DNA from: Elusimicrobia bacterium GWB2_63_22
Lineage (GTDB): Bacteria > Elusimicrobiota > Elusimicrobia > Elusimicrobiales > UBA9959
DNA: 64,000 bases
Direction of reading: 5' to 3'
Assembly: GCA_001799735.1 (NCBI GenBank)
Contig: MGUA01000033.1
Span: forward strand, 1-64,000
How positions within the stretch are numbered: the first letter of the stretch is position 1; each line of letters begins with the position of its first letter. The notes beneath the pieces are model-generated. The model was given only the letters and a program-made list of their open reading frames with translations. It did not search any database and was not told the DNA's origin. Positions 43,067 through 64,000 of the stretch are shown in pieces. Position numbers and translations under genes: made by a program.

Positions 43067-43137
43067 CTCCGGGGTCCTGCAGGGCTGGTCTCACCGCTCG
43101 CTCATAAGCGTGCTGATGCACTGAGCTGTTTGGTGCC

Positions 43138-43272
43138 GCGTCCGTCGCGGGGACAGGGTTAGCAAAACCCTGTCGGAGGTCCGAGCTTGCGTAAGCGCGA
43201 GGACCGAGACGGGGAGTGGCGAGCACGGTGTGCGAGACCACGTTTTTGCGTTCCTGTCCCCGCGGCGGGCGC
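43138..43272 (+). repeat. Structured dispersed element, family A, copy 1
   Basis: This 135-bp non-coding element has 20-bp terminal arms (43138-43157 and 43253-43272) that pair with 18 Watson-Crick and 2 G-T pairs. Its 95-nt core (43158-43252) is the reverse complement of the second copy at 63154-63290 except for four bases. Those four form two compensatory changes in a GGTCC/GGACC stem (43178-43182 with 43201-43205). Other hairpins are GGGTT-agcaa-AACCC, GCTT-gcgt-AAGC, and GTGG..GCAC-ggt-GTGC..CCAC. No T-run follows. It lies between the DUF4254 pair and the next GT9 gene, ending 19 bases before that gene's ATG. Confidence 0.9.
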
Positions 43273-43291
43273 ATACTACAGATTTAAAACG

Positions 43292-60333: not shown

Positions 60334-63147
<2,814 letters not shown>

Positions 63148-63153
63148 ACACTA

Positions 63154-63290
63154 GCGTGTGCCATAGCGGCCCGGAACGCAAAAACGTGGTCTCGCACACC
63201 GTGCTCGCCACTCCCCGTCTCGCCCCTCGCGCTTACGCAAGCTCGGGGCTCCGACAGGGTTTTGCTAACCCGGGCCGCTACGGCGCACGC
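63154..63290 (-). repeat. Structured dispersed element, family A, copy 2
   Basis: This 137-bp element lies on the minus strand relative to copy 1 (43138-43272). Its 21-bp arms (63154-63174 and 63270-63290) are inverted repeats at 19 positions. Their sequence is unrelated to the copy 1 arms. The 95-nt core (63175-63269) equals the copy 1 core except that GT/AC becomes CC/GG, turning the GGTCC/GGACC stem into GCCCC/GGGGC. It sits 26 bases downstream of the peptidase gene on the same strand, in the convergent gap after uvrA. No T-run follows. Confidence 0.9.
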
Positions 63291-63316
63291 GGGCATTGCT
63301 GTATTTGGGAAGATTA

Positions 63317-64000
63317 TTAAGGTTTAGCGCCGAAGTTGATGAAGGGGAGGGTGGAGATCTGTATGGGCTTGAAGTTGAAGCTGGCCGACGGGCTGCCGCT
63401 GGGCAGGCCGTCCTTGCCGGGCTTGGAGTAACCTTCCAGCCAGACCGCCCATTTCCTGCCGAAGTCCAGGCCCGCGGTGACCCGGTAGCTCTTGAAGAGG
63501 GCGTCGTCGAGGGCCATGCCGCCGCGCAGGTTCTCGCAGAAGGTCTTGAACTGCAGCCGCGTATGCGGCCGGTAGAGATAGAGCACCGCCCCGTAGGCCT
63601 GCAGGTACCAGTCGGCTATCTGCGTATCCGAATCCAGCTGGTCGATCTTGAGCGAGAAGAACTTGTCGAAAGGCACCCGCCTCTCCGGCGGGAAGTAGGC
63701 CAGCGCGCGGCTCCACGCCCCCCCTTCCGGGGTGGCGGACTCCTCCATATACACGGCCAGGCCCTCGTTGACCCATTGCGGCGGGTAGGTGAGGCGCTCG
63801 GCAAAGAACCCCTCGAAATACAGGTGCGTCAGCTCGTGGGCGATCACGGCCTTCAGCTTGGCCATATCGCCCGTGTCGTAGACCACCACGGTCTTCTTGT
63901 TGACGTAGGCCAGGCCCTTGGACCAGCGCGGCGGCTTAAACTCGCCGTCGAGGTAGGATTTCTGCGAGGAGTAGATGTAGATCTTGGTCTTTTCGCGCAC
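63317..64000 (-). CDS. Gluzincin-type HExxH peptidase (peptidase MA-like), C-terminal part
   Basis: The frame runs off the right end, so the N-terminus is missing; 227 residues are visible. The zinc site is HELTH in LKAVIAHELTHLYFEGFF, with the third ligand Glu in PQWVNEGLAVYMEE, 19 residues after the second His. This spacing is typical of gluzincins such as the peptidase MA family. The C-terminal part is helical and ends without a membrane segment. Substrate and cell location cannot be judged without the N-terminus. Confidence 0.82.
   Translation of the reverse strand: MREKTKIYIYSSQKSYLDGEFKPPRWSKGLAYVNKKTVVVYDTGDMAKLKAVIAHELTHLYFEGFFAERLTYPPQWVNEGLAVYMEESATPEGGAWSRALAYFPPERRVPFDKFFSLKIDQLDSDTQIADWYLQAYGAVLYLYRPHTRLQFKTFCENLRGGMALDDALFKSYRVTAGLDFGRKWAVWLEGYSKPGKDGLPSGSPSASFNFKPIQISTLPFINFGAKP

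Follow-up and report, generated by a model that had tools for sequence, protein, structure and literature searches.

What kind of molecule is served by the fold of a dispersed element that occurs twice in the window, a stretch of 64,000 nt from Elusimicrobia bacterium GWB2_63_22? The original prediction considered a non-coding RNA, a transposition-like ssDNA substrate, and a regulatory leader for this sequence, referred to here as element A. Copy 1 is intergenic at 43138-43272 on the + strand (43136-43277 according to the covariance model), and copy 2 is found at 63150-63291 on the − strand, between a uvrA-like gene (end at 63147) and a convergent ORF ending at 63317. Both are solo, that is, unpaired, copies. 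Recomparison confirmed what had been claimed of them: over the 95 positions of their cores, 43158-43252 (+) and 63175-63269 (−), they agree at 91, and the four differences (43179 G/C, 43180 T/C, 43203 A/G, and 43204 C/G) form two compensatory pair swaps, all within a single stem (P3b). The arms of copy 1 (43138-43157 and 43253-43272) are 90% complementary, and those of copy 2, unrelated to them in sequence, yet pair with each other. The predicted fold of copy 1 has an energy of −94 kcal/mol as RNA (z −8.6) and −47 kcal/mol as DNA (z −5.7).

Element A is approximately 140 nt in length, with sharp edges in the information content of 184 copies. Its outer stem, P1, spans about 20 bp and is built from a G-rich 5′ arm (43138-43157 on the + strand, as are all the following positions; the sequence is specific to copy 1) and a C-rich 3′ arm (43253-43272). 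Approximately 12 nt outward, P1 also contains a GAC/GGC motif that is conserved in part and includes an A.G mismatch. Inside P1 comes an internal loop, which reads GTTA/GTT in most copies, then P2, in which GCAAAA at 43162-43167 pairs with 43244-43249, and finally a junction with two hairpins. One of these consists of P3 (43168-43174 with 43208-43214) and P3b (GGTCC at 43178-43182 with 43201-43205, the site of the two pair swaps) and is closed by the conserved apical loop CTTGCGTAAGCG (43186-43197). The other, P4 (43216-43241; tip CACGGTGTG, 43224-43232), is the most conserved part of the element and includes tandem G.A pairs that are exchanged for Watson-Crick pairs in other copies.

The host genome (3.06 Mb in 45 contigs) contains about 38 copies (36 places by BLAST, 38 by the covariance model), dispersed across many contigs. 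Relatives carry the element as well: it was found in all 32 genomes of the host Elusimicrobiota genus, with 9 to 80 copies each, where per-genome counts of 9 to 52 are those among the matches listed and hence lower bounds, and a deeper search of three genomes gave 67-80. Four contigs of one congener (G011: C22, C33, C39, and C73) start inside element A cores, indicating that assembly breaks at near-identical copies and that copy numbers are probably underestimated. Beyond the genus, a single copy (E 1e-13) was detected in one of five genomes from other genera of the same family and none in the other four, and the sister family yielded none in 24 genomes. When 84,980 species were scanned for the pattern, the matches listed were titled Elusimicrobia, Elusimicrobiales, Elusimicrobiota, or plain "bacterium" MAGs; viral contigs and plasmid and phage collections gave no match. 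Apart from a tRNA and a miRNA match ascribed to chance, an Rfam search of the window and the locus returned nothing, with no match above the gathering score for element A, in agreement with the view that it belongs to no named RNA family. Such elements were not found described in the literature on Elusimicrobia.

Other structured elements were observed. A 26-nt remnant of a second family, B, lies at 43088-43113 (+), and a full-length B is found at this site in G009 and, in the inverted orientation, in G015. Family B is a structured element of about 200 nt (L091 1295-1500, L092 1287-1500, and L013 1270-1475) with a core of approximately 150 nt that is 88-95% identical between species, near-perfect palindromic arms that are unique, and a hairpin tip resembling that of element A. 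Family C, found in the host genome in the flanks of L045 and L053, has the core GGCTGACCGCAGGGAAACCGTTGCGCGGTTTCCCCCCCGCGGGAAATTAAGCGGG (and a variant) between perfect arms of 20-25 bp that are unique to each copy.

Covariation of element A is overwhelming. The additional copies vary with compensation: both sides change in 34 of 50 pairs among 28 copies of the host genome and in 46 of 50 among 104 copies of other genomes. In the latter alignment, which was fitted to the model and is hence biased towards the modelled fold, 89% of pairing cells are paired compared to 38-42% in a slid control, and the covariation score is 0.515 versus 0.043-0.074. With the same optimisation applied to both, the arms of one copy pair at about 16 of 19 positions, whereas arms taken from different copies pair at 10.9. 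The fold is therefore real and maintained, as had been proposed. Pairing is as good in solo copies as in paired ones (16.5 versus 16.1 of 19), which argues that the solo copies are not decayed remnants. The notion that copies differ simply by selected compensation is, however, too simple. Between sister species that are approximately 95% identical and share most element A copies, whole P3b stems have been replaced at once with pairing kept (L261/L281 and L266/L296), a probable sign that templated copying, or exchange between copies, plays a part.

The arms also reveal which strand is likely to fold. Read on the + strand, their mismatches are strongly lopsided, with 94 G.T versus 27 A.C and 152 purine.purine versus 17 pyrimidine.pyrimidine, an asymmetry that points to folding of one strand. 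The ranking of these mismatches agrees with mismatch stability in DNA. G.T pairs are nearly absent from the inner stems (0 of 912 in P3b and 5 of 1068 in P4), and some are present in the P1 arms (62 of 1735). The near-absence in the inner stems favours ssDNA over RNA, though it could also result from selection for strong stems.

A further feature of element A is its occurrence in inverted pairs. Among the matches listed in six genomes, 28 of 30 neighbouring copies less than 2.5 kb apart are in (−,+) order, with their 5′ ends inward, as are all 17 neighbours less than 120 bp apart; beyond 2.5 kb, the order is mixed. With one in four expected, this excess is far beyond chance; the pairs are not all independent, as one is orthologous in G011 and G002. 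The GC content between (−,+) partners 0.12-3.5 kb apart is 0.37-0.50 in eight of nine cases, and that of intervals between copies in other orders is 0.46-0.68. Partners 0.4-1.8 kb apart enclose mostly AT-rich DNA, and the cargo of the pairs includes ORFans, an Mrr-type nuclease (Mrr_cat), and a Gp49/HTH toxin-antitoxin-like pair. Outside the 3′ arm of many paired copies lies an outer tail, GACT(GGGCA or TCGCT)TCTCGCGG followed loosely by CCCTTAACCCAAAG, which accompanies 20 of 44 copies with a 5′ partner versus 18 of 181 without one and is present at both ends in several units. Of the 32 genus genomes, 25 contain the tail pattern, which occurs once outside the genus and is far commoner than its reversed control. 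Most element A copies stand alone and lack the tail. What was suspected to be a larger unit at G005:C11 turned out to be an ordinary gene region, one end of which carries an A pair.

Comparison of congeners showed that these units are inserted relative to empty sites. The unit with the Mrr gene in G017 is absent from 12 congeners, in which the genes are joined by short spacers, and at the site of copy 1 many congeners have only 9-25 bp between the genes. One site exists in three states, being empty in G016, occupied by an 89-aa cargo in G017, and occupied by a different, larger cargo in G026. In another case, a unit with a 1.28-kb cargo in G011 corresponds to one A at that site in the sister genome G002. 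Between G002:C69 and G011:C87 (L336 and L335), a toxin-antitoxin-like pair is common to both, the next AT-rich gene differs, and the right-hand A is present in G002 only, a pattern of cargo exchange. At two sites (L312 and L329), the simple hairpin TGGGGTCAGGTCTTGCATTTCAACAAAATGTTGAAATGCAAGACCTGACCCCA or a near version of it, unrelated to A, sits where a sister genome has A. No target duplication was seen in comparisons of units with empty sites, which are only about 70-83% identical, and the one comparison made between near-identical sisters can be read in more than one way, as the "empty" site has arm sequence in common. The idea that arms are inverted copies of the target flank (L263/L286) was dropped; since the GGGTTCGGAGCCG border is also found at L265, the L263/L286 site may be a deletion.

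Several known systems resemble element A in part. REPINs are intergenic, occur as inverted doublets and singlets, and show compensatory changes in a spacer hairpin (PMC3116915). Like REPs and REPINs, element A is dispersed, intergenic, and hairpin-forming, with singlets, overrepresented inverted doublets, and compensatory changes. In contrast to REPs, which are short (20-40 bp) palindromes with a GTAG-type tag, it is about 140 nt and branched, and no conserved GTAG was found at its edges in the information content of the 184 copies; moreover, its inner core is conserved and its outer arms are variable, no RAYT (Y1 HUH) gene is linked to it, and it brackets cargo genes. The TIRs of TIRtrons and CGTC-tagged REPs form moderately abundant families of single or dimeric elements, some TIRs being partly self-complementary; CGTC REPs lack a dedicated transposase, and TIRtrons flank their tyrosine transposase gene (PMC3733652). 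Element A shares single and dimer occurrence with both and the lack of a dedicated transposase with CGTC REPs, whereas its pairs flank unrelated ORFan and defence cargo instead of a tyrosine transposase. Compared to MITEs and composite transposons, with which it shares inverted terminal repeats around short DNA and lineage-specific insertion, its ends conserve fold above sequence, and no target duplication was seen in units compared with empty sites about 70-83% identical. Integron cassettes combine attC sites of variable sequence and conserved fold with single-gene, AT-rich, ORFan, and toxin-antitoxin cargo. Element A is similar in its conservation of fold over sequence and in its kinds of cargo, and its strand asymmetry is compatible with a one-strand fold; it differs in being dispersed in inverted pairs, with no array beside a dedicated integrase. 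No attC boxes were seen in it by eye, and no integrase dedicated to it was recognised beyond ubiquitous tyrosine recombinases.

None of the Y1, RVT_1, and tyrosine recombinase genes points to a mobilising gene for element A, each single absence being weakened by MAG incompleteness. Y1_Tnp was rejected as it is absent from five A-rich genomes and present in genera without A; Y1 genes were not found in the cargo of A pairs. Reverse transcriptase was likewise rejected, as most A-rich genomes, including G000, G014, G017, and G022, lack RVT_1. Tyrosine recombinases are ubiquitous and so uninformative.

These observations bear unequally on the possible explanations. The regulatory leader is unsupported, since orientation to the flanking genes is random (60 copies with both, 55 against both, 35 between convergent, and 16 between divergent genes). 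The same randomness, together with 9-80 copies per genome, weighs against a family of structured non-coding RNA genes with a host function such as protein binding or RNA processing, its spread being incidental. Such a family would account for the strong fold and loop conservation, for loops CTTGCGTAAGCG and CACGGTGTG and tandem G.A motifs that resemble protein- or tertiary-contact sites, for the well-paired solo copies, and for the excess of G.T over A.C in the arms. However, a freely covarying RNA stem would not usually be so nearly devoid of G.T pairs as P3b and P4 are, the inverted order and AT-rich cargo are left unexplained, and we regard this explanation as unlikely. The transposition-like ssDNA substrate is the best fit among the options originally considered.

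Complementary arms might instead arise, free of selection on the fold, from a DNA mechanism such as template switching at quasi-palindromes or gene conversion between copies. The stem replacements between sisters, the near-identical cores at which contigs break, and cores common to copies with differing arms are all in keeping with it, but a symmetric process does not predict that G.T and purine.purine mismatches should be in excess on one strand, or that edges and loops should be fixed; this explanation is rather improbable. Even less probable are REP/REPIN-type repeats moved by a resident Y1 (RAYT) transposase. The singlets, inverted doublets, and compensatory changes recall REPINs, and the host genome has four Y1 matches, yet the Y1 distribution does not track element A, no A lies within 1.5 kb of any of eight Y1 genes from the genus, and the size, branching, and untagged edges of A are unlike those of REPs.

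The explanation that we favour, with moderate confidence, is that element A is the structured end, about 140 nt in length, of lineage-specific non-autonomous mobile elements, the fold being recognised in trans and pairs moving AT-rich cassettes. One strand would fold into the long outer stem, with an internal junction bearing two hairpins, and a trans-acting enzyme would recognise this ssDNA fold and not the stem sequence. Two inverted copies, 5′ ends inward and often with a common outer tail, would bracket and move small AT-rich genes; a solo A would be the same end standing alone and may itself be mobile; and exchange between copies would probably refresh the core and swap stems. Since solo copies are well paired, pair mobility cannot be the sole reason for the fold, and the pair model does not fully explain solo copies, including both in the window. 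More tentatively, and with considerable doubt, these could be parts of a self-standing cassette system in which a shape-recognised, branched ssDNA end captures and exchanges single foreign genes at dispersed sites, with integron-like cargo, no arrays, and no recognised integrase.

Collectively, element A has the appearance of a folded terminus belonging to a mobile gene cassette of a kind not described before. If this is true, it would represent an additional mobile-cassette type spreading ORFan and defence-like genes in an uncultured phylum, and its approximately one thousand copies would provide a natural data set for separating fold selection from templated copying in DNA hairpins.
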